Source: Halorussus aquaticus
GTDB taxonomy: Archaea; Halobacteriota; Halobacteria; Halobacteriales; Haladaptataceae
Direction: 5' to 3'
Assembly: GCF_024218795.1 (NCBI RefSeq)
Contig: NZ_CP100400.1
Location: 2,852,001-2,916,000 of the forward strand
DNA: 64,000 bases
A program made the position numbers and the translations under genes. The notes beneath the pieces were generated by a model that saw only the letters and a program-made list of their open reading frames with translations, was not told the DNA's origin and did no database searches. Positions 6,575-29,562 of this stretch are shown here, in pieces (within the stretch, counting starts at the first letter, position 1; each line of letters begins with the position of its first letter).

Positions 6575-6593
6575 TTTTTAGGCCAGCCTAAAA
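6575..6593. promoter_or_regulatory. Iron box 1 (DtxR/IdeR/Idr-like palindrome)
   Basis: The core TTAGGCCAGCCTAA at 6578-6591 is flanked by T and A runs. It overlaps the likely TATA region of the glutamine-synthetase-like gene, whose ATG follows at 6618. The same 14-base pattern recurs five more times, four of them at the siderophore promoters. Occupancy here would block promoter binding, so iron-replete repression is the expected effect (inference from DtxR-family iron repressors). Confidence 0.75.
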
Positions 6594-6605
6594 TAACCGC
6601 GTTGC

Positions 6606-6611
6606 AAGGAG
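6606..6611 (+). promoter_or_regulatory. Shine-Dalgarno AAGGAG for the GS-like gene
   Basis: AAGGAG lies six bases before the ATG at 6618. Many genes in this window look leaderless, so a strong ribosome-binding site is notable. It supports the chosen start and a transcript with a short leader. Confidence 0.6.
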
Positions 6612-6617
6612 ATACTG

Positions 6618-7955
6618 ATGACGGAGAACCAGTCGATTGCCGAACGATGTCGGGACGCGAACTGCGACCTCGTGCGGTTGCTGTTCGTGACCCAGAGCGG
6701 GGCGATACGCGCCCACGCGGTGGACGCCTCGAAGGTCGAAACCGCCGTCGAGGACGGCGTGACGCTCTCCCAACTGGTGCAGACGTACAACGCGCTCGGC
6801 GTCCGAGACAAGGACGGACGGTTCGACGCCGCCGGAGAGGTCCGACTCTGCCCCGACTCAGAGACGTTCCGGGCGCTCCCCTACGCCGAACGCACGGGGG
6901 CGATGCTCTGCGACGTCGAAACGCTCGACGGCGACCCGTGGACCGTGGACCCGCGCTCGTCGCTCCGGGCGTTCGTCGAGCGACTGCGGGCCGACGGACT
7001 CGCGCCCGAAGTCGCGTTCGAGAGCGAGTTTCACCTGTTCGAGACCGACGACGACGGCACCGTCCGCAACGTGGACGAACGCGGAGCGTACCTGACCAAG
7101 AGTACGCGCGAGACTCACGAGACCGTCTTGGCGACGATAGACGCGCTGAAGGCACAGGACGTCGCCGTGGAGAAGTATTACCCCGAGTACGCGGCCGGGA
7201 AACACGAAATCGTCACGGGCCACGCGCCGGGCGTCCGGGCGGCGGACGAACACGTCCTCCTGCGCGAGACGGTCGATAGCGTCGCGCGCGACCACGGCTA
7301 CCGCGCCACGTTCCTCCCGAAACCGTTCGACCACGCGACGAACGGCTGTCACGTCCACCTGTCGCTGTGGGACGAGACCAACCGCTTCCACGACGAGGAC
7401 GAGGGGCTGAGTCGGACGGCCAGACAGTTCGTCGCGGGCGTCCTCGACCACGCGCCCGGTCTCGTCGCGCTGACGGCCCCGACCGTCAACTCCTACGCCC
7501 GCTTGCGGCCCCAACTCGGCGCGACGGCGTTCGTCTGCTGGGGACGGGGGAACCGCGAGGCCCTCGTCCGCGTGCCCGCGACGGGCCAGTCCGACGACCC
7601 CGAGGCGACGCGGGTGGAGTTCCGCGCGGCCGACAACACCGCGAACCCGTACCTCGCCCTGCTGGGATTGCTCGCGGCCGGGTACGACGGAATCGAACGC
7701 GAACTCGCGCCTCCGGAGTCGGTCTCCATCGACCCCGGCACCCTCTCGGCGGCGGCGCGCCGAGAGCGGGACATCGACCGACTCCCGCGGACGCTCGGCG
7801 CGGCGCTCGACGCGCTCGAAGGCGACGAGGTGCTGCGCGACGCGCTCGGCGCGGACCTCTTCGAGACGTACCTCGGCGTCAAGCGGAGTCATTGGAAGGC
7901 GTTCACGGACAGTGCGGTCTCTTGGGAGCGCGAGCGACTCCGAGACGTGTACTGA
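6618..7955 (+). CDS. Glutamine-synthetase-family ligase in the iron regulon
   Basis: This 445-residue protein of the glutamine synthetase fold (amide-bond ligases using ATP, glutamate and an amine) has an N-terminal beta-grasp half with [15 protein letters not shown]. The C-terminal catalytic domain shows [19 protein letters not shown] (about residues 194-205), NGCHVHLS (about 241-248) and the terminal [19 protein letters not shown] block. It resembles the GlnA-like/PuuA/FluG branch rather than the main nitrogen-assimilation GlnA. It may glutamylate an amine other than ammonia. An iron-box palindrome covers its promoter and it converges on the siderophore-uptake operon, which suggests a role in siderophore biosynthesis, modification or polyamine/diaminopropane handling. 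That role is inference; the fold is clear. A housekeeping GlnA cannot be ruled out without a phylogeny. Confidence 0.82.
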
Positions 7956-8007: not shown

Positions 8008-8973
8008 TCACAGAGTGTGACGGACCGGCTCGTACGGCTCTTCGAGATACTCCACGTCGGAGTCCGACAGCGAGATGTCGAGCGCTTCGACGGCCTGTTC
8101 GAGGTGTTCGATGCTGGTCGTTCCGACGACCGGCGCGTCCACGACGTCCTTGTGGAACAGCCACGCGAGCGCGATCTGTGCCATCGTCACTCCGTTCTCG
8201 TCGGCGAGTTCCGCGACGCGCTCGTTGATTTCGCGGCCGTTCCCCTCCAGATACGGGTAGAGGTCGGTGTAGTCGTTGGTCCGTCCTCTCGCGGTGGTCT
8301 CCAGTTCGGCGTGGGGCCGAGCCAGATACCCCTTCGCCAGCGGACTCCACGGCAGCACTCCGACGCCGTTCTCGCGACAGTACGGGAGCATCTCGCGCTC
8401 CTCCTCGCGGTACAGGAGGTTGTAGTGGTTCTGCATCGAGACGAACGACTGGAGTCCGAGCGCCTCGCTCCGGCGTCGGGCCTCGGCCAACTGGTAGGCC
8501 AGCGTCGTGCTCGCGCCGACGTACCGGACCGACCCCCGACGCACCGCGTCGTCGAGCGTCCGGAGCGTCTCCTCGACGGGCACGTCGTCGTCCCAGCGGT
8601 GGGTCTGATAGAGGTCGATGGTGTCCACGCCGAGGCGGTCCAGACTGTTCGAGAGTTCCTGCTCGATGGCCTTTCGGGAGAGACCGCGAGCGTTCGGGTT
8701 CGACTCGTCCATCTCGCCGAACACCTTCGTCGCGACGACGAGTCGGTCGCGGTCGTAGCCGTCGATGGCCTCGCCGAGAATCTCCTCGCTCCCGCCCGTC
8801 GAGTAGACGTTCGCGGTGTCGAAGAAGTTGACGCCGAGGTCGATGGCCCGGTCGATAATCTCGCGGCTCTCGTCCGAGTCGAGCATCCACTCCTTCCCGT
8901 CACCGAACCCGAGACAGCCGAGACAGATGCGACTGACCGACAGGCCGGTGTCGCCGAGGGTCGTGTACTCCAT
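8008..8973 (-). CDS. Aldo/keto reductase, cotranscribed with siderophore-binding protein
   Basis: This 321-residue NAD(P)H-dependent oxidoreductase has a TIM-barrel fold. The catalytic tetrad is visible: Asp in the NFFDTANVY segment (about residue 50), Tyr of VYSTGGSE, Lys of VVATKVFG, and His in LYQTHRWD. It starts three bases after the stop of the siderophore-binding-protein gene, so the two share a promoter carrying two iron boxes. General AKRs act on aldehydes and ketones. The operon context suggests a part in iron acquisition, for example reductive iron release or precursor metabolism, but that is inference only. It is full length with typical neighbourhood codon use. Confidence 0.88.
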   Translation of the reverse strand: MEYTTLGDTGLSVSRICLGCLGFGDGKEWMLDSDESREIIDRAIDLGVNFFDTANVYSTGGSEEILGEAIDGYDRDRLVVATKVFGEMDESNPNARGLSRKAIEQELSNSLDRLGVDTIDLYQTHRWDDDVPVEETLRTLDDAVRRGSVRYVGASTTLAYQLAEARRRSEALGLQSFVSMQNHYNLLYREEEREMLPYCRENGVGVLPWSPLAKGYLARPHAELETTARGRTNDYTDLYPYLEGNGREINERVAELADENGVTMAQIALAWLFHKDVVDAPVVGTTSIEHLEQAVEALDISLSDSDVEYLEEPYEPVRHTL

Positions 8974-8976
8974 GGC

Positions 8977-10152
8977 TCAAATCGCTCCGCTCCGGATGTC
9001 GGCGACGCGCTGACGGTCGTAGAGTCGCTCGTCCTCGCCGAACTCGTCGGGGAACAGTTGCTTGGCGGTCCGCTCGGTCTTCGAGAGGTTCGTAATCGGT
9101 CCCTGATACATGCTGCCCGCGGGGTAGACGTCCCCGTTCTGGACCGCGGTCAGGGTGCTCGCGGTGTCGTGCCCGCGGAGGAATTCGAGGTACGTCGAGC
9201 GGAACTGCTCGGCGGTCCGGTGCTGGTCGGTGTAGAACATCAGCACCTCCGGGTCTATCTCCAGCAGCGGTTCGTAGTCTATCGTCCCCCGGTCGGAGGT
9301 GAACGTCGATATGTCCGACCCCGCCAGCGCGTCGCCGATGCCGAGGTCGTTCCAGTGTTTGTACGCCGTCCGGTCGCCGAGTCGGTACGGGTAGTATTTT
9401 TCGGGTTCGGTAGACGCCGGGGAGAGTAGCGCGACGGAGGGTCGCTCGTCCGGCAGTCGGTCCGTGATTCCGCCGATGACTTCGTCGTGATACTGCGAGA
9501 AGGCCTCGTATCGGTCGGTCCGCTGGAACACCTGCGCGACCTTCTCGAACGCCTCGTAGAGGTCGTAGTAGGGGTAGTCCTCGTGCCACGAGTAGGTCGA
9601 GAAACTCGTGTTCCCGCAGAGCGGACCCACGTTCGTAGCTATCTCCTCGACGTCGGCCTGCTTCCAGTTCGGGATGAGGTTCGTCATGTAGTTCGGGTCG
9701 ATGAAGTGGACGTCGGCGTCGAGGTCGTAGAACAACTCCTTCGAGATGCCGTCCTGCCAGAGCGAGGTCATCTCGTCGGTATCGACCGAAAGCTGCGGAA
9801 CGTCGTCGTAGTGGTGAGTGCGGTACTCGCCCGTGAGAACGACGGCGAGCGGCGGTTCCAACCCGAGCGCGATGCCCATGTCCGCCCAACTCGCGTTCTC
9901 CGCGACCCACGCTTCCGGGACCTGCTCGAACGACACGTCGCCGACCGGCGGCAGTGTGACCGAGTACGAGGCGTCCTGCGTCGTCTCTTCGGTCGTTTCG
10001 GTCGTCGTAGTGTCGGTCGTGGTCGTCGCGTGGGTCGTCGTCGAGTCGCCACCGGACCCGCCGGTACAGCCCGCGAGCGCCGCGCTACCGACTGCTACGC
10101 TACCTTTGAGGAACCGTCGCCGCGTCGAGTCACCGTCTGAGCTATCGACCAT
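8977..10152 (-). CDS. Tat-exported lipoprotein, ferric-siderophore ABC-type binding protein
   Basis: This 391-residue solute-binding protein has a twin-arginine signal TRRRFLKG (residues about 10-17), then a lipobox ending ALAGC (about residue 29), and a Thr/Glu-rich linker of about 30 residues that tethers it to the membrane. The body is FecB/FhuD-like, with a long central helix region and a C-terminal NGDVYPAGSMYQGP segment resembling the end of periplasmic iron-siderophore binders. It should capture a ferric siderophore outside the cell and pass it to an ABC permease, but no permease or ATPase gene is adjacent. The start ATG lies three bases from an iron-box palindrome, with a TATA-like ATTAATTG about 25 bases upstream, so the transcript is probably leaderless. 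Confidence 0.86.
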   Translation of the reverse strand: MVDSSDGDSTRRRFLKGSVAVGSAALAGCTGGSGGDSTTTHATTTTDTTTTETTEETTQDASYSVTLPPVGDVSFEQVPEAWVAENASWADMGIALGLEPPLAVVLTGEYRTHHYDDVPQLSVDTDEMTSLWQDGISKELFYDLDADVHFIDPNYMTNLIPNWKQADVEEIATNVGPLCGNTSFSTYSWHEDYPYYDLYEAFEKVAQVFQRTDRYEAFSQYHDEVIGGITDRLPDERPSVALLSPASTEPEKYYPYRLGDRTAYKHWNDLGIGDALAGSDISTFTSDRGTIDYEPLLEIDPEVLMFYTDQHRTAEQFRSTYLEFLRGHDTASTLTAVQNGDVYPAGSMYQGPITNLSKTERTAKQLFPDEFGEDERLYDRQRVADIRSGAI

Positions 10153-10154
10153 AG

Positions 10155-10174
10155 TTTTTAGGCCGACCTAAAAA
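10155..10174. promoter_or_regulatory. Iron box 2, proximal site of the binding-protein promoter
   Basis: The core TTAGGCCGACCTAA at 10158-10171 is extended by T and A runs into a 20-base near-palindrome. It lies between the TATA-like element (10175-10182, read on the minus strand) and the ATG at 10152, where a bound repressor would block transcription initiation. Confidence 0.8.
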
Positions 10175-10190
10175 CAATTAATCGCTTCGA

Positions 10191-10208
10191 TTTAGGTCGG
10201 CCTAAAAT
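10191..10208. promoter_or_regulatory. Iron box 3, distal site of the binding-protein promoter
   Basis: The core TTAGGTCGGCCTAA is at 10192-10205. Its centre is 34 bases from that of box 2, with the TATA-like sequence in between. Paired sites of this kind suggest cooperative or double-dimer repressor binding around the promoter. Confidence 0.78.
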
Positions 10209-10293: not shown

Positions 10294-12216
10294 TTAGTGG
10301 CCTCCACGGTCGCCGAACTCGGACAGCGGATTCGAGACGGTGCCGTGGCCTCGCACCTTCGGCCGGGTGCTGAAGTCCTGATAGCCGTAGTCCACGATTC
10401 TGTTCCGGTTGAGACAGTGCTTGGTGAACCGGGGTCGAAACAGGTCGAACGTCTCGAACCGGTCGGCGAGACCGGGGAACTCGGCCTGATAGCGCTCGAT
10501 GGCCGACCGGACCTGCCGCCAGAATCGTTCTTCGGCGTAGTCTTCCCGGCGGGCCAGCAGGTCGGCGACGTACCGGAAGACGCCGACGAACAGCGTCCCG
10601 AAGACGTGCTGGCAGAGCGGTTCGGGCGGGAGGCGGTGGAGGATGTGGTGCTTGTACCGCTCGTCGTCGCGCAGGTCGTCCGCGAGTACCTCGTCCAGTT
10701 CCGGCAGGTCGCGGTCGGTGATGGCGACCTCGTCCACGAAGTCCTTGACCGCGATGCGGGTCGGCACGCCGCCCTCGTGGACGAGGACGACGTTCGTCCC
10801 GTGGGGCATGAACACCGTGCCGTACTTGTAGAGGTAGTGGACCAGCGGGTGGAGCAGCACGTCGAATAGCCGGTCGAGCCACTCGCTCAGTCCCAGTCCG
10901 GAGCGCTCGACCAGTTTCGAGACCAGCGGCGTCCCGTCGAAGTCCTCGTGGATGAGCGCCGCGAGCGTCAGGGGGCGTTCGCCGTCCTCGACCATCGAGA
11001 CGACGCTCTCGCGCCAGACGCACCCGAGGAGTTCGTGAAACTGGTACGGTGCGTCGTCGAACGCCGAGAAGTACGGGTGTTCGTAGTTCACGCTGGCGAC
11101 TTCGCCCGGCAGGAGCAGGTCGCAGTCGTCTCGGAGGAAGGCGTCGCCGTCGCGCACCCCCTTCACGAACTCGGTCACGCGCGGGGCGGCCTCGGCCTGC
11201 TCGCCCAGAATCCCGCGGTAGACGTTGGTGTTCAGCACCCGAATCGGGAGTTTGACGTGGCGCTTCGTCGGGTCCGAGACGTTCGAGAACGTCCGAATCG
11301 ACTGCTGTGGGAGGTACTCGTCCGGGGCCTCGCCGAGCGGAACGATGGCGTCGTCGGCGATGTCGCCCGCGAACAACTGGACCACGCTGTCGTTCCACTG
11401 CCAGTCGTGGACCGGCAGGAAGTGGTAGTTCGCCGGGTCGAGTCCCTCGTCGGCCAGCGTCGCCCGGAACGCGCCGACGGTGTCGCCCAACTCCGATTCG
11501 AGCAGGCCGTCGCGGTCCAGTCCCTCGACCGCGGAGAACGTCGCCCGGTCCCGCCGCGCGGCGACCCACGAGAGGCGCTGGCGTCGCTTGGACTCCGGGG
11601 CGTACCGCAGGTAGTCGTCGTAGCCGAACCCGACCCGGCCCTTGTTGTAGGTGAACCACGGGTGACCTTCCATCTCGCCCTCGACCGCTGCGTACGGGAG
11701 GTCGAGTATCGAGGCGTCGGCGGGCGCGTCTGCCTTCCGCGCCCGGATGTGGGCGTCCGCGACGAGCGTGTTGCGGTACTCGCGGACGAGGTGGGCCGCG
11801 GTCGTCGGGTCGATGCCGACGTACCCGCGGGCGTCCAGCAGGAACCGAAGCGGGTCGGTCGCCTCGGTCCACTCGTCGGCGTCCGCCGACTCGCCGTCAG
11901 GTCGTGTCGCGTCGGCCGAGTTGCCTGCCGTTTCACCGACGGTTCGGCGGAACACCGACCGGTCGCGAACCCGGTAACTGTCGAGGGGGCGAGACTGCGC
12001 GTCGAAGCGGTACTCGACGCCGTCGTCGAGTCGGAGGCGGTATCGCGTCCACGACTCGCCGGGGTCGGACTCGTCGGCCGGGACCGTCCCGGCGCGTGCG
12101 GGAGCGATCAGGTCCTCGTAGAGGAACTCCGCGAGGATTTTCCGGAGCAGGTCGCGTTCGACCGTCTCCCACGTCTCGGCGTTCAGCGCGGACCGGAGCG
12201 CGTCGAAGTCGTCCAT
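10294..12216 (-). CDS. IucC-type NIS siderophore synthetase (RhbF-like)
   Basis: This 640-residue member of the IucA/IucC family of NRPS-independent siderophore synthetases uses ATP to adenylate a citrate carboxylate and couples it to an N-hydroxylated, acylated diamine. Visible blocks are GHPWFTYNKGRVGFG (ATP-site region), LPVHDWQWND, SIRTFSNVSDPTKRHVKLP, and the C-terminal iron-transporter-like region HGTNVVLVH and KDFVDEVAITDRD. It is the sixth and last gene of the siderophore operon. I chose the ATG at 12214-12216, two bases after the upstream stop; a GTG two codons earlier would overlap that stop and is possible. In rhizobactin and aerobactin pathways this enzyme adds the second amine arm. 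Confidence 0.93.
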   Translation of the reverse strand: MDDFDALRSALNAETWETVERDLLRKILAEFLYEDLIAPARAGTVPADESDPGESWTRYRLRLDDGVEYRFDAQSRPLDSYRVRDRSVFRRTVGETAGNSADATRPDGESADADEWTEATDPLRFLLDARGYVGIDPTTAAHLVREYRNTLVADAHIRARKADAPADASILDLPYAAVEGEMEGHPWFTYNKGRVGFGYDDYLRYAPESKRRQRLSWVAARRDRATFSAVEGLDRDGLLESELGDTVGAFRATLADEGLDPANYHFLPVHDWQWNDSVVQLFAGDIADDAIVPLGEAPDEYLPQQSIRTFSNVSDPTKRHVKLPIRVLNTNVYRGILGEQAEAAPRVTEFVKGVRDGDAFLRDDCDLLLPGEVASVNYEHPYFSAFDDAPYQFHELLGCVWRESVVSMVEDGERPLTLAALIHEDFDGTPLVSKLVERSGLGLSEWLDRLFDVLLHPLVHYLYKYGTVFMPHGTNVVLVHEGGVPTRIAVKDFVDEVAITDRDLPELDEVLADDLRDDERYKHHILHRLPPEPLCQHVFGTLFVGVFRYVADLLARREDYAEERFWRQVRSAIERYQAEFPGLADRFETFDLFRPRFTKHCLNRNRIVDYGYQDFSTRPKVRGHGTVSNPLSEFGDRGGH

Positions 12217-12218
12217 CG

Positions 12219-13658
12219 TCACTCGCCCTCCGGGGCGGCGGACTCGGGGTGGCTCGCGTCCCCGCCTCCGCTCCCCGTGTCCGCGTCGCCCCGACCGCGG
12301 CCGCGCCGGTTCACGAACTCCTCGACCGCGAAGTCCTGATACACCGTGTCTGCGTCCTCGGGGTAGACCTCCCGGCCGACGAGTCGGTTCACGATGCGGG
12401 AGTTGCGGTAGCACCCCAGTCCGAGGTCGGGCGCGCCGACGCCGTGACTGTGGAGGTCGCCGTTCTGGACGAACACGTCGCCAGCCACGTCGTCGAGGAC
12501 GAGGCGGTGGTCCTCGGTGACTCGATACCGGCCCTTCTCGTCCCACGCGATTCGGTCCTCGATGGGGTCGAGGAACTCGGGGACCGGTCGGTGGTAGCCC
12601 GTCCCGAGAATCACCACGTCGCTCTCGTGGACGAACGACTCGTCGGTCTGCCACTGGCGGCAGTCGAGTCGGTAGTTCGCGCCCGTTTCGCTCGCCTCTC
12701 CCGCGTCGATGGCGTCGATGTCCTCGACCTCGGTCACGGCGAACAGTCCCACGTCAGGGTCCCGGTCGCCGACCGACCGCTCGTAGAGCAGGTCGTAGAC
12801 GGCGGCGCTGGTCTCGGGGTCGATTCCCTTGTAGAGCAGGTCTTGGTCCGCCCGAATCTCGTCTTTCCGGTCGTCGGGGAGGTCGTAGAAGTACTCGACG
12901 TACTCGGGCGTGAAGTGCTGTAGCCCGAGTTTCGAGTACTCCATCGAGAAGAACCCCTCCGAGCGCGTGAGCCAGTCGAGGCGGTATCCGGCGTCAGGTT
13001 GGCGGTCCAGCAGGTCGTGGAACACCTCGGCCGCGCTCTGGCCCGACCCGACCACCGTAATCGAGTCGGCGTCGAGACACCGGTCGCGTCGGAACCGGTA
13101 CTCGGCGGTGTGGAACACGTCCGCCTGTGGGTGACCACGCAGGGTCTCGGGGACGTAGGGCCGACTTCCGACGCCGAGCGCGAGGTTCCGGGCGCGGTAG
13201 GTCCGTTCCTGGCCCGTCTCGGGATTCCGGGCGGTCACGACGAAGTGGCCGTCCTCACTGGCGTCGTCCCTACTACCGTTCTGCCACGCCACGTCCTCGA
13301 CCCGGCGACCGAACCGGCAGGTCCCGAGGCGTTCGGCGACCCACCGGAGGTAGTCGTCGTACTCCCGGCGGGGAATCTGGAACGTCTCGTAGAAGTAGAA
13401 CTCGTAGAGGCGGTCGCGCTCCCGGAGGTAGTTGAGGTAGCTGTGGGGGTTGGTCGGGTCCGCCATCGTCACGAGGTCCGCGAGGAACGGGACTTCGAGC
13501 GTGGTCCCCGCTATCAGCATCCCCTCGTGCCACGCGAACTCGTCGTCCTGTTCGAGGAAGAGCGCGTCTACATCGGCCTCTGCGCCGTCGAGGAGCGCGG
13601 CGAGTCCGAGGTTGAACGGGCCGAGTCCGACGCCGACAACGTCTCGAATCCGGCTCAC
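12219..13658 (-). CDS. L-lysine/ornithine/diamine N-monooxygenase (IucD/RhbE-like)
   Basis: This 479-residue flavin- and NADPH-dependent N-hydroxylating monooxygenase introduces the N-hydroxy group of hydroxamate siderophores. It begins with the FAD motif GVGLGPFNLGLAAL, has the family block PFLADLVTMADPT (about residues 59-71), the NADPH motif VVGSGQSAAE, and the C-terminal ATGY-like ILGTGYHRP. By position it should hydroxylate the free amine of 1,3-diaminopropane or its acyl form. The GTG start at 13656-13658 forms a 4-base GTGA overlap with the acetyltransferase stop, which supports this start and translational coupling. The last 30 residues are Gly/Asp-rich and probably disordered. Confidence 0.93.
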   Translation of the reverse strand: MSRIRDVVGVGLGPFNLGLAALLDGAEADVDALFLEQDDEFAWHEGMLIAGTTLEVPFLADLVTMADPTNPHSYLNYLRERDRLYEFYFYETFQIPRREYDDYLRWVAERLGTCRFGRRVEDVAWQNGSRDDASEDGHFVVTARNPETGQERTYRARNLALGVGSRPYVPETLRGHPQADVFHTAEYRFRRDRCLDADSITVVGSGQSAAEVFHDLLDRQPDAGYRLDWLTRSEGFFSMEYSKLGLQHFTPEYVEYFYDLPDDRKDEIRADQDLLYKGIDPETSAAVYDLLYERSVGDRDPDVGLFAVTEVEDIDAIDAGEASETGANYRLDCRQWQTDESFVHESDVVILGTGYHRPVPEFLDPIEDRIAWDEKGRYRVTEDHRLVLDDVAGDVFVQNGDLHSHGVGAPDLGLGCYRNSRIVNRLVGREVYPEDADTVYQDFAVEEFVNRRGRGRGDADTGSGGGDASHPESAAPEGE

Positions 13659-14242
13659 GCCACCACCTCCCGCTCGAACCGGTCGCGCTCGCAGACCATC
13701 AGCAGCGCCGTCTTCTCGTCCATCTCGATTTCGCGCCGAGGTTCGAAGCCGCACTGCTCGAAGACGTGGTGGACGATTTCGTTTCGCACGTCGGGTTCGG
13801 CCACGACGCGTTCGGTCTCGCCGTGCCGGAACTGCATCTCGACGACCGCGCGGAGGAGGGGTTCGGCGTAGCCCTGTCCGAGATACTCGGGCGGCCCGAC
13901 GAGCAGGTGGACGCCTCGGTCGGCGGCGTCGGCGTCGTAGTGGTCCGCGACGGGGTCGTCCGCCGCCCAGTAGCACTCCCAGTAGCTCATCGGCACGTGG
14001 TCGAGGTGGCCGACGTAGGAGGTCAGGTGGTCGTCGGCCAACTTCTCGGCCAAGGCGTCGTGGAACTCGGGGAGCGGGTCGGCCAACTGCCAGTAGGGCA
14101 GTACGTGGTCCTCGTTGAGCCACGCGTGGAGCATCCCGAGGTCGGCCATCTCGGCCTGCCGGAACGAAATCGCCTTCTCGACTTTCCGGTCGTACGTCTG
14201 GAAGTCGTACGGCGCGGCGACGACGCCACCGGCCCCGGTCAT
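13655..14242 (-). CDS. GNAT acyltransferase for siderophore assembly (IucB/RhbD-like)
   Basis: This 195-residue GNAT-fold acyltransferase matches the siderophore acetyltransferase group: FRQAEMADLGMLHAWLNEDHV near the N-terminus, SYWECYWA in the middle, and the acyl-CoA-binding loop GPPEYLGQGYAEPLLRA (about residues 130-147). It should acetylate the N-hydroxylamine to form the hydroxamate. The ATG at 14240-14242 overlaps the upstream stop by four bases (ATGA), and its own stop overlaps the next start. Length agrees with about 195 residues for RhbD-like proteins. A longer upstream open frame lies inside the IucA-type gene and was rejected. Confidence 0.9.
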   Translation of the reverse strand: MTGAGGVVAAPYDFQTYDRKVEKAISFRQAEMADLGMLHAWLNEDHVLPYWQLADPLPEFHDALAEKLADDHLTSYVGHLDHVPMSYWECYWAADDPVADHYDADAADRGVHLLVGPPEYLGQGYAEPLLRAVVEMQFRHGETERVVAEPDVRNEIVHHVFEQCGFEPRREIEMDEKTALLMVCERDRFEREVVA

Positions 14243-16077
14243 CGCCGACTCACCTCCGACTCGGTCGCGGGGCCGCGCTCGGTCTCGGTCACGAGCGGGT
14301 TGGTCACGTCGGCGTACACCGACTGGTTCTCCAGCGACCCGACCAGTTCGTCCATGTCGTGGAACCGCGTGAGCAGGTTCGCCTTGCACGGCAGGGTCTC
14401 GTCTTCGAGCAGGCCGTTCAACAGCGACGACGACTCGCGGTCGAACGTCCGGCAGTATTCCAGTTCCTCGCGGAGAATCCCGAGCAGGTCGCGCTCGTCG
14501 GCCAGCCCCGCGGTCCCGAAGGCGTTGACGACGCCGAACAGGTTGTTCAGCACGACGTAGTACCGGATGCGCTCGTCGGCGACCGCGTCGGGACAGACGG
14601 TGTCGGCGCGCTCGCCCACGCCGGGGAGCAGGGCGTCCACGTCGTCGTACTGGGATTCCGGGAAGTAGTAGCCCTGATTGTCCCGGTAGTAGAACTCGGC
14701 CGGGTAGCCGTCCTCCAGCGCGAGGACGCTGTTCTGCTGGTGGGCCTCGACGCCGACCCCGCGTTCGAGGTAGAGCCACAGAATCGCCCGGAGCGAGCGT
14801 TCGAGATACCGACGGAACCAATCGCGACTGACCGCCTCCGTCGAGCGCCCCTCGCGCTCGGCGAGGGTCTCGATTATCTCGCCCAACCGCGACCCGTCGC
14901 CCGCGATGCGGTCCTGACAGAGCGCGACCACCGGACCCGCGTTCTCGGCGTCCGCGCCCCGGAAGGCGTTTTCGCGCAGGACGACCTCGAACCCAGACTC
15001 GGCGCCCTCGCCGACGGTCAGCGTGAGCGAGGCCGGGTCGCGCACGACGTGGAAGTCGGGGAAGCGCTCGCGGAGGTCGTCGCCGAGTTCGGTGTCCAGC
15101 AGTTCCGCGACGGCGACCCCGCGGTCGAGTTCCGGCCGCTTGTTGGTGCGCTCGGAGTTGGTAATCCGGACGTTGAGCGACCCCTTGACCATGAACGGGG
15201 CGTCCGGGGCGTAGAGCGTCCGGACCGAACTCGTCGGGTGGAATTCCCGGCCGACACGGCCCAGCGACTCCAGTCCGTCCCCCAGATGCGCCTGCACGTG
15301 GTCCTGTTCGAGCAGGTAGTCGGCCTGCCACGGGTGGACCGGAATCAGCACGTCGTCGCTCTCGACGTGGGCGGCGACGAACGACTCGGGCACCGCGGGG
15401 TCCTCCCGGAGCGCCGACTTCACCCACTCGCTCGCGGCGTCGGCGCTCCCGGCATCGACCTCGACGGTCGCGCCGAGCGCCGAGTCCTGCCAGACGAGGT
15501 CGGGGTCGGCCCGGAAGTAGTGGAGCGAGAACGACCCCTCCAGTTCGGGCGCGTAGGTCGGCGACTCGTGGGGCGGGATGCCCTGCCTGCTCTTCGGCGT
15601 CGGGTGGAGCAGGTGGCCGAACACCAGCGACTGCTCGGCCTCGCGGAACGTCGTGTCGAAGCCGTAGAGCTGTTCGGTGTCGTCCCTTCGAGCCTCCACG
15701 AACCGGGCGACGTTCTTGCAACTCCGGACGACCCGCAGAAGGAGTTCGTTGCGGTTCCCGGCGTCGTCGCGCGCCAGCGAGAGTTCCTCGGTCACGAGCG
15801 ACGCCAGCGTGACGTAGTCGAGTTCGAGCGTCTGGTCGCCCCGTCGGTAGTAACCCGGCAGGTCGAACAGGTGGCGGTCGGTCGGCGACCGATACCGTAG
15901 CGGGACGAACAGAGTGATTCCCTGTTCGGGCAGGGGCGCGCGGACGACGCGCTCGCGGCCGTGGGTCGGCGCGGGCGTGTCCGCGGCGTCCGCGACCTCG
16001 TAGTCGCCGGTCTCCCGGAGGTAGCAGTTGAGGAAGCTGTGCAACGTGGCGGACTCTGCGATTGCTGTCGGATTCAT
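14239..16077 (-). CDS. IucA-type NIS siderophore synthetase (RhbC-like)
   Basis: This 612-residue NRPS-independent siderophore synthetase of the IucA/IucC family condenses the first hydroxamate arm with citrate. Motifs include GHLLHPTPKSRQGI (the conserved GH..HP.PKSR block, about residues 174-187), IPVHPWQADYLLEQ, SSVRTLYAPDAPFMVKGSLNVRIT in pieces, and GVGVEAHQQNSVL followed by YYRDNQGYY near the C-terminus. It is clearly paralogous to the IucC-type gene downstream but distinct in sequence, as in other two-synthetase pathways. The ATG at 16075-16077 overlaps the decarboxylase stop (ATGA). Confidence 0.94.
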   Translation of the reverse strand: MNPTAIAESATLHSFLNCYLRETGDYEVADAADTPAPTHGRERVVRAPLPEQGITLFVPLRYRSPTDRHLFDLPGYYRRGDQTLELDYVTLASLVTEELSLARDDAGNRNELLLRVVRSCKNVARFVEARRDDTEQLYGFDTTFREAEQSLVFGHLLHPTPKSRQGIPPHESPTYAPELEGSFSLHYFRADPDLVWQDSALGATVEVDAGSADAASEWVKSALREDPAVPESFVAAHVESDDVLIPVHPWQADYLLEQDHVQAHLGDGLESLGRVGREFHPTSSVRTLYAPDAPFMVKGSLNVRITNSERTNKRPELDRGVAVAELLDTELGDDLRERFPDFHVVRDPASLTLTVGEGAESGFEVVLRENAFRGADAENAGPVVALCQDRIAGDGSRLGEIIETLAEREGRSTEAVSRDWFRRYLERSLRAILWLYLERGVGVEAHQQNSVLALEDGYPAEFYYRDNQGYYFPESQYDDVDALLPGVGERADTVCPDAVADERIRYYVVLNNLFGVVNAFGTAGLADERDLLGILREELEYCRTFDRESSSLLNGLLEDETLPCKANLLTRFHDMDELVGSLENQSVYADVTNPLVTETERGPATESEVSRR

Positions 16078-17564
16078 CGTCGGAGTTGTCTGTCTGCGAC
16101 CGCGATGGTTCGCGCGCGATTCCTGACGGCGTCGAGCACGTCGGCGACGCGTTCGACGGTCGTCTTCGGGTTCAGCAGGGTGAACTTCAGGGCGGTCGTC
16201 CCCCCGACCTCGGTGCGCCCGACCACGGCGTCGCCGTTCCGGAGCAGCGCCTCCCGGACCGCGGCGTTGAGTGGGCCGACCTCCTCGTCGCCGACGCTCT
16301 CGGGGCGATACCGGAAGACGACCGCGTTGAGCGTCGGGTCGTTGAGTACCTCGAAGTCGGACGCGTCGGCCAGCAGGGCCGCAACGTCGTCGGCGAGGGC
16401 GAGGGTGGACTCGACCAGTTCGGCGAGTCGCTCTCGGCCGAGCGTCCGGAACGTCACGTAGGGCTTGAGGGCGTCGAATCGCCGGGTGGTCTGGACCGAC
16501 TTCGAGACCAAGTTCGGCGCGGCGAGGTCGCCGTCCTCGGGGTTGAGGTACGCCGCCGACCGCTCGACGAGGTCGAAGCGGTCGCCGTCCCGGAGGAGGA
16601 GCGCCCCGCAACTGATGGGTTGGTAGAACAGTTTGTGGAAGTCCACCGCCAGCGAGTCAGCGCGCTCGATTCCGGCCAGTCTCTCGCGGTGGGTCTCCGA
16701 GAGCGCGAGCGCCCCGCCGTAGGCCGCGTCCACGTGGAACCAGAGGTCGTGCCGGTCGGCCCGGTCGGCGAGCGCGTCGAGCGGGTCGATGCTCCCGAAG
16801 TCGGTCGTGCCCGCGGTCCCGACGAGCGCGAACGGTTCGCGTTCGCGCTTGCGGAGGTCGGCGAGGGTCGCGTCGAGCGCCGCGGTGTCCATCCGGTGGT
16901 CGCCGTCGGTCTGGACGGTCACGACCGCGTTCTCGCCGAGACCGAGGTGGGCGGCGGCTTGCTTCGCGGTGAAGTGGGCCGCCTCCGAGCAGAGGATGCG
17001 CATCGCCTTGGCCTTGTGCGGTAGGCCCGTCTCCTCGACGCGGCGACCGAACCGCTCGCGGCCGAACCAGTTGCGGGCCAGCAGGAGGGCCTCGAAGTTC
17101 GACTGGGTGCCGCCGCTGGTGAACACGCCGTCGCCCTCGGGACCGTAGCCGAACAGGTCGCAGAGTCGGTCCACCATCCGACGTTCGACGTAGGTCGCAG
17201 CGGGACTCTGGTCCCACGAGTCGAGCGACTGGTTCGTGGCGGCGATAGCGGTCTCGGCCGCGAGCGCGGGCACCAGCGGCGGGCAGTGGAGGTGGGCGAC
17301 GCAACTCGGGTCCGAGACGCCGACCGAGTCCGACAGGATTCGGTCGCCGACCTCCTCGACGGTCTCGGCGAGGGGTTGGCCCTCGTCGGGCAGGCACTCG
17401 ACCCCACCGAACCGGTCGTCGAGGCGGTCGGGAGACGCCCCCGAGTAGGGCGTCGCGCTCTCGGAGACCGCTTCGACGACCGCCGCGCTGGCCCGCTCGA
17501 CGGCCTCTCGATAGGCGTCGTTCCCGGACTCGGTGCCGAGGAACAGGTCCTCGGCGTCCGTCAT
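16074..17564 (-). CDS. L-2,4-diaminobutyrate decarboxylase (RhbB-like)
   Basis: This 496-residue group II PLP-dependent decarboxylase has the PLP lysine in AVDFHKLFYQP (about residue 305), the substrate-side HLHCPPLVPALAAE block, and GVFTSGGTQSNFEALLLARN. Acting after the neighbouring aminotransferase it should convert L-2,4-diaminobutyrate to 1,3-diaminopropane, the amine arm of schizokinen and rhizobactin. Start (ATG 17562-17564) and stop both make 4-base ATGA overlaps with the flanking genes. Glutamate or tyrosine decarboxylase is possible from the fold alone, but the operon makes the diaminobutyrate role much more likely. Confidence 0.92.
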   Translation of the reverse strand: MTDAEDLFLGTESGNDAYREAVERASAAVVEAVSESATPYSGASPDRLDDRFGGVECLPDEGQPLAETVEEVGDRILSDSVGVSDPSCVAHLHCPPLVPALAAETAIAATNQSLDSWDQSPAATYVERRMVDRLCDLFGYGPEGDGVFTSGGTQSNFEALLLARNWFGRERFGRRVEETGLPHKAKAMRILCSEAAHFTAKQAAAHLGLGENAVVTVQTDGDHRMDTAALDATLADLRKREREPFALVGTAGTTDFGSIDPLDALADRADRHDLWFHVDAAYGGALALSETHRERLAGIERADSLAVDFHKLFYQPISCGALLLRDGDRFDLVERSAAYLNPEDGDLAAPNLVSKSVQTTRRFDALKPYVTFRTLGRERLAELVESTLALADDVAALLADASDFEVLNDPTLNAVVFRYRPESVGDEEVGPLNAAVREALLRNGDAVVGRTEVGGTTALKFTLLNPKTTVERVADVLDAVRNRARTIAVADRQLRR

Positions 17565-18922
17565 GGCGACCCGCCGGTGGCTTCGGAGACGGCGGCTTCG
17601 ACCGCCTCGCGGAAGATGCGGCCGATGTCCTCGACCTGCTCCTTCGAGACGATTAGCGGGGGTAAGAACCGGACGGTCGCGACCTCGCGGCCGCCGCGTT
17701 CGACGAGTAGCCCGCGCTCGAAACACGCCGACTGGACGGTCTCCGCGAGGTCGGGGGCGGGCGGACGCGCGCCGAGGGCGTCGGCGTCGGCCGATGCGTC
17801 CACCATCTCGGCTCCGAGCATCAGCCCCCGGCCCCGAACGTCGCCGACCGCGGCGAATCGGTCGGCCGCGGCGTCGAGGTGGTCGCGCAGGCGTGCGCCC
17901 ATCTGCTCGGCGTGACTCGGCAGGTCGTTGTCCACGATGTACTCGATGGTCGCCCTCCCGGCGGCCATCGCCAACTGGTTGCCCCTGAAGGTGCCGGTGT
18001 GGGCACCCGACTCCCACTCGTCCAACTCCTCGTCGTAGAGCGTCACCGCCAGCGGGAGACCGCCGCCGACCGCCTTCGAGAGCGTCACCACGTCGGGCGT
18101 GATGTCGGCGCGCTCGAAGTCGTAGAGTTCGCCGGTCCGGCCCAGCCCCGACTGGATTTCGTCCACGACGAGGGGCACGTCGTGTTCGCGCGTGATTCGG
18201 CGCATCTCCCGGAGCCACTCGGCGGGCGGGGCGACGGACCCGCCCTCTCCCTGCGTCGGTTCGAGGACCATCGCTGCGGGGTCGGTGAACCCGCGCTCCG
18301 GGTCTTCGAGCAGGCGCTCGACGTACTCGCTGGCGACCTCGTGGCCGTCCTCGCCGACGCCGAATGGACAGCGGTACGGGTAGGGGTACGGCAAGTGGTG
18401 GACGTTCCCCATCGTCCCGGGTATCGACTCCTTGGGATCCGTGTCACCCATCAGACCGAGCGACCCGTGGGTCATCCCGTGGTAGCCGCCGCGGAACGAG
18501 AGGACCGACCGGTTGCCGGTCGCGGTCTTGGTGAGTTTCAGGGCGGCCTCGACGGCGTCGGTGCCCGCGGGGCTACAGAACTGGATCTTGGCTGACTCGG
18601 CGAACTCGTCGGGGAGGCTGTCGAAGAGTGTGTCCACGAACGCCTCCTTGATCGGCGTCGTGATGTCGAGGGTGTGCATCGGCCGGTCGGCCGCCATCGC
18701 GTCTTCGATGGCCTCGACCACGACCGGATGGTTGTGACCGAGGTGGAGCGTGCCCGCTCCGGCGAGACAGTCATAGTAGGTGTTCCCGTCGGCGTCGGTG
18801 ACTTCGACGCCGCGCGCCTCTCGTATCGCCATCGGGAGGTATCGCGGGTAACTCCGCGCTCCCGACTCTCGCTCGGCCTGTCTGTCGAGCAGTCGGTCGT
18901 TCGACGCGTCGGAGTAGTCCAT
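17561..18922 (-). CDS. Diaminobutyrate-2-oxoglutarate aminotransferase (RhbA/Dat-like)
   Basis: This 453-residue class III PLP aminotransferase has the motifs FCSPAGTDAVEAALKLTK, FRGGYHGMTHG, VDEIQSGLGRTG and the PLP lysine in VTLSKAVGGGLPLAV (about residue 270). It transfers the amino group of glutamate to aspartate semialdehyde, giving L-2,4-diaminobutyrate for the decarboxylase downstream. It is the first gene of the operon. The ATG is at 18920-18922 with GGAG about 12 bases upstream, and two iron boxes lie 76-148 bases above it, so the mRNA probably has a leader of about 70 bases. Confidence 0.93.
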   Translation of the reverse strand: MDYSDASNDRLLDRQAERESGARSYPRYLPMAIREARGVEVTDADGNTYYDCLAGAGTLHLGHNHPVVVEAIEDAMAADRPMHTLDITTPIKEAFVDTLFDSLPDEFAESAKIQFCSPAGTDAVEAALKLTKTATGNRSVLSFRGGYHGMTHGSLGLMGDTDPKESIPGTMGNVHHLPYPYPYRCPFGVGEDGHEVASEYVERLLEDPERGFTDPAAMVLEPTQGEGGSVAPPAEWLREMRRITREHDVPLVVDEIQSGLGRTGELYDFERADITPDVVTLSKAVGGGLPLAVTLYDEELDEWESGAHTGTFRGNQLAMAAGRATIEYIVDNDLPSHAEQMGARLRDHLDAAADRFAAVGDVRGRGLMLGAEMVDASADADALGARPPAPDLAETVQSACFERGLLVERGGREVATVRFLPPLIVSKEQVEDIGRIFREAVEAAVSEATGGSP

Positions 18923-18997: not shown

Positions 18998-19018
18998 ATT
19001 TTAGGCTGACCTAAAAAT
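18998..19018. promoter_or_regulatory. Iron box 4, siderophore operon promoter
   Basis: The core TTAGGCTGACCTAA at 19001-19014 lies within ATTTTAGG...CCTAAAAAT. It sits just downstream (minus-strand sense) of an AT-rich stretch at 19012-19031 that is the best TATA candidate for the dat-to-iucC operon, so it probably overlies the transcription start. Confidence 0.8.
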
Positions 19019-19050: not shown

Positions 19051-19070
19051 ATTTTAGGCCGCCCTAAAAT
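19051..19070. promoter_or_regulatory. Iron box 5, distal site
   Basis: ATTTTAGGCCGCCCTAAAAT is palindromic except for one base pair; the core is at 19054-19067. It lies 53 bases (about five helical turns) from box 4, upstream of the siderophore promoter. It also ends directly against an ATG on the plus strand at 19071, the same geometry as boxes 2 and 6. Confidence 0.8.
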
Positions 19071-28660: not shown

Positions 28661-28678
28661 TTTTAGGCTAGCCTAAAA
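28661..28678. promoter_or_regulatory. Iron box 6, perfect 18-base palindrome overlapping a start codon
   Basis: TTTTAGGCTAGCCTAAAA is an exact palindrome whose last A is the first base of the ATG at 28678. A TATA-like TTTACTTA lies at 28643-28650. This is the best copy of the TTAGG-N4-CCTAA motif in the window. Confidence 0.85.
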
Positions 28679-29562
28679 TGGTCGGCGCAACTCTGAGCGA
28701 CCTGCGAGAGCGCATCGCAGAACACCACGACGACGGCGGTCGGTACTACGTGAACTGCGCCCGGACGGGCGAACGGCCGGTGCCGGTCGCGGGCAAGCGA
28801 TTCCCCGACCGGGAGACCGCCGTCGCGGCCGCCGAACTCGCCGCCGAGTACCGCGCGGAACTCCGGCGGTACGACCCACGGCTACCCCACTACGACCTCG
28901 TGGTCTCGGAGGACCCCGGCGACCGCGACTCGGTGGACCCGGTCCCGTCGGCCGAGGATTCGTTGGACGCTGCGACCGCTTCGGACTTCTGTCACGACGT
29001 GGCCGCCGCGGTGTTCGAGGCGCTCTCGGAACTCGGCGAGAACAGCGTCGAGCGCGCCGTCTTGGAGGCGTATCTCCACTCGGCCGAGTCCGTGACCGAC
29101 CCCGACGAGTTGTGTCTGGTTCTGCTCTCGACCGCGGCGACCGAAATCGACGCCAGACTCGACCCCGGGCGACAGGCACGAGTCCTCCGAACCGCCGCGA
29201 ATCGACTCGGGACGCCGTCGCGGTTGGACGACCCGATGCGCGCGACGCTGGCACGTCTCGACGGTCTCTCGCTGGTCGGCGACTACGCGGTCGTCCCGAA
29301 CGGCGATACCGCCGCGGATTCCGATTCGGAGGGTGATACCGGGCGCTCGTGGAGAATTACGGTCGAGGAGTACGCCTTCGAAGCGTCCGAGGGTCGAGTT
29401 CCGACGCTCCCGTTCGCGGTCGAACTCTTCCGACACCTCCCGGCGGAGACGGTCGCGGTGGCGGACCTGCGGGCGATGACCGAGAGTCGGTGGGAGTGCG
29501 TCGTCTCGACCGACCCCGACCGCGCTCGGGCGGTCAGTCTCGCCGTCCCGGAGAACCGCTGA
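28678..29562 (+). CDS. Unknown haloarchaeal protein under iron-box control
   Basis: I do not recognise this 294-residue acidic, soluble protein. It has no signal peptide, membrane segment or cysteine cluster. The N-terminal 70 residues (LRERIAEHHDDGGRYYVNCA, then GKRFPDRETAVAAAELAAEYRAELRRYD in pieces) look like a small alpha/beta domain. The middle part (FCHDVAAAVFEALSELGENSVERAVLEAYL) is helical. The end, VPTLPFAVELFRHLP followed by WECVVSTDPDRARAV, is again alpha/beta. A perfect iron box covers the start codon, so it should be made only when iron is scarce. Roles in siderophore handling, iron release or sparing are all open. The ATG at 28678 is fixed by the leaderless promoter geometry. 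Confidence 0.75.
   Translation: MVGATLSDLRERIAEHHDDGGRYYVNCARTGERPVPVAGKRFPDRETAVAAAELAAEYRAELRRYDPRLPHYDLVVSEDPGDRDSVDPVPSAEDSLDAATASDFCHDVAAAVFEALSELGENSVERAVLEAYLHSAESVTDPDELCLVLLSTAATEIDARLDPGRQARVLRTAANRLGTPSRLDDPMRATLARLDGLSLVGDYAVVPNGDTAADSDSEGDTGRSWRITVEEYAFEASEGRVPTLPFAVELFRHLPAETVAVADLRAMTESRWECVVSTDPDRARAVSLAVPENR

Follow-up and report, generated by a model that had tools for sequence, protein, structure and literature searches.

A predicted gamma-glutamyl-diamine ligase of the iron regulon, associated with a variant siderophore synthetase in haloarchaea

The window, a stretch of 64,000 nucleotides of the Halorussus aquaticus genome, carries a gene for a ligase of the glutamine synthetase (GS) fold under a conserved iron box. 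We consider it moderately probable that this gene encodes a gamma-glutamyl-diamine ligase of the iron regulon which, together with a variant of the synthetase RhbF, makes a modified citrate siderophore. The proposal is supported here by sequence comparison: the protein family, the retained residues, the lost ammonium site, the boxes, the clade, the linkage to siderophore genes and the co-variation with RhbF. Published work adds that a near-certain orthologue has ligase activity and that its gene is repressed together with siderophore genes (PMC8394153, PMC11218638).

The ligase, its family and its promoter

The ligase gene runs on the + strand from an ATG at 6618 to a stop at 7955 and encodes 445 amino acids. 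On the basis of the ORF, a domain search, a tree, an active-site table and a structural model, the product was classified as a GlnA-2-like gamma-glutamyl-amine ligase, subclade A of GS2 (our shorthand for the ligase group that includes the window protein; L and G numbers below designate loci and genomes). It contains a Gln-synt_C domain (PF00120, 325 bits) and exceeds the curated cut-off of NF045547, gamma-glutamylputrescine synthetase (732 bits, cut-off 650), and it falls below that of TIGR00653, the type I glutamine synthetase GlnA (281.9 bits, cut-off 429.15). The residues that serve glutamate, ATP and metal are kept (E129, E131, E212, E220, H269, E357, R321, R339, R344 and R359). At the three ammonium-site positions that characterize GlnA (D50, Y179 and E327), the protein has S, A and G (D50S, Y179A, E327G). 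The only other GS of the genome is a canonical GlnA located 450 kb away, at C1:3309304-3310605. The possibility, raised with the original prediction, that the ligase is the sole housekeeping GlnA is thus ruled out by the TIGR00653 score, the separate GlnA and the loss of the ammonium site. The protein is a GS-fold protein but not a glutamine synthetase.

An AlphaFold2 model, computed with 26 sequences of the window and the loci (pLDDT 84.6, pTM 0.89), matched structures of archaeal GS and of gamma-glutamyl-methylamide synthetase (GMAS), with TM about 0.88. At the level of a predicted structure, this confirms the GS fold; the model does not identify the amine substrate. GMAS (9qur, TM-score 0.88) also ligates glutamate to an amine, but it is only 28% identical to the window ligase and belongs to methylamine metabolism, with no link to iron or siderophores.

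A motif scan, combined with conservation among orthologues, placed a perfect palindrome, TTTTAGGCCAGCCTAAAA (6576-6593, 0 mismatches), over the putative TATA region of this gene, as originally predicted. Six iron boxes are present in the 64-kb window, where 0 are expected. By motif scan, two of the others precede the gene of a binding protein (10156-10173 and 10190-10207) and two the siderophore operon (18999-19016 and 19052-19069), and there is one at a DUF7551/DUF7552 gene. Genome-wide, TTAGGN4CCTAA was found at 19 sites, compared to 3 for the reversed control pattern; two further loci, among the sites checked, lie before other Peripla_BP_2 lipoprotein genes. In its form, the box resembles DtxR-type iron boxes.

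The distance from the start of the 14-mer TTAGGN4CCTAA to the downstream ATG is 36 to 40 bp in 15 of 20 subclade-A orthologues and 27 to 40 bp in 18 of the 20. The A/T-rich end of the window box, CCTAAAATAA, sits at the position expected of a TATA box if the transcript is leaderless. The ligase ATG is preceded by AAGGAG, which had been taken for a strong Shine-Dalgarno sequence, yet AGGAG occurs in just 4 of the 20 orthologues, and this argument was dropped. Given the near-constant distance of the box and the rarity of AGGAG, the promoter reading stands and the ribosome-site reading falls; the spacing would fit a leaderless start of the ligase transcript. The gene has its own boxed promoter, outside the biosynthetic operon, and its membership of the iron regulon is well supported. 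The regulator acting on the box is probably a DtxR-family repressor.

The GS tree that had been proposed as a check was computed by maximum likelihood on 54 proteins. It places the window ligase in a single clade of 31 haloarchaeal members (support 100/99), to which 15 other proteins are sister (97/87). The 31 members had been named after a quick first tree and a linkage map, so the clean split describes the tree and was not tested blind; scanning for boxes was done independently of it. In 21 of the 31, an exact box lies at most 140 bp from the gene's own start (20 within 51 bp, and L114 at 140 bp). Six more stand behind a boxed first gene, namely the second copies at L103, L106 and L107, and L110, L111 and L115. 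L104, L105 and L112 have no exact box; the first two, both RhbF-GS2 pairs, have decayed boxes with 2 and 4 mismatches. For L148, near-identical to L110, the box scan covered 400 bp. For the 15 sister-group genes, a scan of 400 bp found no box. The active sites also differ: subclade A shows Y179A (V in two proteins) and E327G, the sister group Y179C and E327W. Both groups retain the metal, ATP and glutamate residues, except for R359K in the sister group. The NF045547 family, whose cut-off the window ligase exceeds, thus covers both the iron-boxed clade and its sister, which is free of boxes and has a different active site.

Siderophore genes, RhbF and a published orthologue

The ligase gene converges on a pair of genes (8008-10152, - strand), in agreement with the original prediction: an aldo/keto reductase (AKR, 8008-8973, assigned by domain search and genome comparison) and a Peripla_BP_2 substrate-binding lipoprotein of the siderophore-uptake type (8977-10152, domain search). 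Beyond them lie the siderophore genes, all on the - strand: RhbF, an NIS synthetase belonging to the variant clade that occurs together with GS2 subclade A (10294-12216, domain search and trees); an RhbE-type amine N-hydroxylase (12219-13667) and an RhbD-type acetyltransferase (13655-14191), both from domain searches; the NIS synthetase RhbC, which does not track GS2 (14239-16155, domain search and tree); and, from domain and family profiles, a diaminobutyrate decarboxylase-like gene (Ddc/RhbB, 16074-17567, start codon not pinned) and a diaminobutyrate--2-oxoglutarate transaminase (Dat/RhbA, 17561-18922). The window thus holds the components of an NIS hydroxamate siderophore cluster, with Dat, Ddc, two IucA/IucC proteins, a GNAT and an N-hydroxylase. 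The known schizokinen and rhizobactin 1021 clusters (H. volcanii HVO_B0041-B0046, rhbABCDEF) likewise comprise Dat, Ddc, two NIS synthetases, an acetyltransferase and a hydroxylase, but they have no GS-fold ligase, whereas in the window one accompanies a variant RhbF. The claim that such a ligase lies outside the known schizokinen pathways agrees with the six-gene cluster that makes the H. volcanii siderophore (PMC7407949). The AKR was tried as a constant partner of GS2 and dropped, since a copy of at least 87% identity was found in six GS2-bearing genomes only (against 0 of 20 controls).

Most clade members sit among Dat, Ddc, IucA/IucC, GNAT and hydroxylase genes, typically as a divergent pair RhbF (-)/GS2 (+) with two boxes in between. 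The co-occurrence suggested at the outset was examined in 394 genomes. NIS synthetases were present in 21 of the 22 genomes with a GS2 of at least 54% identity, compared to 89 of the 372 others (Fisher P about 9e-12), and in 25 of 37 compared to 85 of 357 when all GS2 hits were counted (P about 1e-7); both values are uncorrected for relatedness, and the 54% line was set after the linkage was seen. The one exception among the 22, G013 (L088), has a GS2 fragment beside an RhbC fragment. There the binding protein, the reductase and the box remain, and it looks like a single deletion took most siderophore genes and the front of GS2. GS2 is lacking in about four-fifths of NIS-bearing haloarchaea. 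Of the 25 GS2-bearing genomes, 8 have no RhbE hydroxylase genome-wide and 3 no Ddc, while GS2 and RhbF are retained. A purely hydroxamate-linked role was therefore dropped: GS2 does not go with the hydroxamate arm alone, and its amine may vary from species to species. At L100, L101 and L102 (G110, G111 and G142), NIS clusters contain Dat, RhbF and GS2, with RhbC in L101 and L102; neither Ddc nor hydroxylase was detected genome-wide, and these clusters probably make a non-hydroxamate siderophore.

The closest association is with RhbF. A tree of 60 RhbF proteins gathers an RhbF from each of the 20 subclade-A genomes in a single clade of 26 rows (100/100), outside which these genomes place only second copies, from two of them; the GS2 label needs two changes on this tree. 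The RhbF of L154 falls inside the variant clade even though RhbF and GS2 are on different contigs of that genome. Pairwise distances of GS2 correlate at 0.85 with those of RhbF, compared to 0.47 with those of RhbC. The association is not absolute. Six sampled genomes, four of them Haloferax-like, have a variant RhbF and no GS2, so that GS2 is not indispensable to it. The idea of a strict dependence was abandoned after wider sampling revealed these exceptions, and the exclusive clade seen earlier was partly a sampling effect.

Identities within individual clusters add to the case for co-variation. Between the window and Halorussus vallis, which has no GS2, Dat, Ddc, RhbC, RhbD and RhbE are 74 to 83% identical, and RhbF and the binding protein only 53%. 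With Halostella, RhbF, GS2, the binding protein and AKR are 73 to 87% identical, and the genes from Dat to RhbE 56 to 66%. Across the genomes compared, binding-protein identity varies with RhbF and GS2. The simplest reading would be a shared cassette. In the genome that carries L003 and L155, the main operon has no RhbF, which is supplied by a separate RhbF-GS2 locus.

One member of subclade A appears to have been characterized already. The L103 copy, 62% identical to the window ligase, has 18 of the 19 published GlnA-2 residues at the same numbering (the exception, R295 in the published table, is R296 in L103), and its gene order is the published one: MATE transporter, glnA-2, transporter gene, glnA-3. 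From the sequence match it is near-certainly Haloferax mediterranei GlnA-2 (HFX_1688/E6P09_11460), and by residues and gene order G102 is probably this species or one very close to it. Recombinant GlnA-2 ligates glutamate to putrescine and shows no GS activity; the amine assayed was putrescine, not diaminopropane. Deletion of the gene (HM26-ΔglnA-2) alters growth with putrescine, its reporter activity is nearly constant across nitrogen sources, and its authors assigned it to nitrogen and polyamine metabolism (PMC8394153). To call the ligase a new enzyme was thus too strong, because the family is named and GlnA-2 is published; its connection with siderophores, the other half of that claim, is supported.

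The L103 gene has an iron box 36 bp before its start. Unlike the window gene, it is remote from the siderophore operon, and its neighbours are glnA-3 and the gene of an iron-binding protein. RNA-seq of H. mediterranei under denitrification reported glnA2 at -4.05, glnA3 at -5.37, the binding-protein gene between them at -4.25 and six siderophore genes at -6.0 to -7.1, with glnA unchanged (+0.37); SirR was proposed for the iron genes, and the repression of glnA2 and glnA3 was left unexplained (PMC11218638). Boxes of the type found here precede glnA-2, and also the binding-protein gene followed by glnA-3, and offer an explanation for this repression, which was seen under denitrification and not after an iron shift. 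The predicted iron control, the distinctness from GlnA and the siderophore link are supported by the conserved boxes, the clade, the clusters, the RhbF co-variation and these RNA-seq data.

Proposed role and competing readings

In the proposed pathway, the repressor would leave the boxes upon iron starvation, and Dat, Ddc and the other enzymes would make diamine-citrate units. The ligase would join glutamate to a short diamine in an ATP-dependent reaction via gamma-glutamyl phosphate, the candidate diamine being 1,3-diaminopropane from Dat and Ddc, or a homologue. Variant RhbF would then attach the gamma-glutamyl-diamine, or an intermediate carrying this unit, to citrate, and the resulting siderophore would differ from plain schizokinen. 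The natural amine, the order of steps and the product are inferences. A more ambitious version, which we put forward tentatively, is a glutamylated haloarchaeal citrate siderophore, in which the ligase feeds a specialized RhbF and the two enzymes are swapped as a cassette, in some clusters along with the binding protein. Several points count against the proposed role: H. volcanii makes its siderophore with six genes and no GS2 (PMC7407949), most NIS-bearing haloarchaea do without GS2, as do six genomes with the variant RhbF, the window ligase gene stands outside the biosynthetic operon, and the RhbF-GS2 pairs L104 and L105 have lost the box.

The main rival, which we regard as rather unlikely, is overflow or recycling: Dat and Ddc would flood the starved cell with diaminopropane or cadaverine, and the ligase would cap the excess or released diamine, leaving the siderophore unaltered. 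The action of the near-certain orthologue on free putrescine, and the effect of its deletion on growth with putrescine, argue for it (PMC8394153), as do the separate boxed promoter and the accessory distribution of GS2. However, three GS2-bearing genomes have no detectable Ddc, and an enzyme that caps diamines in general would not be expected to co-vary specifically with RhbF rather than RhbC. Nor does the genome have a true PuuD hydrolase to reopen the product: a search for a PuuD-type gamma-Glu-GABA hydrolase gave weak cross-hits, the best Peptidase_C26 match scoring 37 bits and all matches being partial. The same absence led us to drop PuuABCD catabolism. Ordinary PuuA-like polyamine catabolism for nitrogen or carbon, with the box and the neighbours incidental, would suit the NF045547 name, and the box-free sister proteins may do this; for the window ligase it is very improbable in view of the clade-wide boxes, the siderophore linkage, the RhbF co-variation, the missing PuuD and the weak response of the glnA-2 reporter to the nitrogen source (PMC8394153).

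The established structure of schizokinen, which once finished lacks a free amine for glutamate to be attached to, counts against late tailoring, in which the finished siderophore or released fragments would be glutamylated for export, for recognition by the binding protein or for inactivation after iron release. An MFS transporter gene directly after GS2 in L004, L145 and L146, and the exchange of the binding protein along with RhbF and GS2 in some clusters, speak for this reading. Against it, the one activity known from the subclade uses a small free diamine, and we judge late tailoring improbable. The GS fold is all that recommends a glutamine synthetase, housekeeping or backup, to which we give practically no credence: the genome has a separate canonical GlnA, TIGR00653 is missed, the ammonium-site residues are lost and GlnA-2 has no GS activity (PMC8394153).

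If the modified siderophore is real, a GS-fold enzyme would act within NRPS-independent siderophore assembly, species would, in the cassette version, change the 'key' and the 'lock' of their siderophore at once, and GlnA-2, a characterized archaeal enzyme, would move from nitrogen metabolism to iron acquisition. The proposal predicts a haloarchaeal biosynthetic step, and probably a siderophore, that have not been described so far; even for H. volcanii the siderophore is deduced from its genes. Our literature search, which covered few subscription papers, found no paper tying the ligase to siderophores; the main question can be addressed with the published deletion strain HM26-ΔglnA-2.

Paralogues and other boxed genes

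At L103, L106 and L107, two GS2 paralogues of subclades A and B lie near each other, and a binding-protein gene with a box immediately precedes the B copy; this pairing suggests two distinct glutamylation substrates. Elsewhere (L110, L111, L115 and L148), a subclade-B GS2 is found directly behind a GNAT acetyltransferase gene and opposite an amidase gene; the L148 cluster has no Dat or Ddc, and an aldolase/citrate lyase gene follows. A perfect box at 28661-28678 overlaps the start of the DUF7551/DUF7552 protein gene (28678-29562, + strand), and a second boxed DUF7552 gene, with two boxes 20 bp apart, is present at L023 (G000:C1:2666148). These boxed proteins are a candidate family of the iron regulon. 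At L017 (G000:C1:1535786), an iron box lies upstream of a lipoate-protein ligase-like gene.
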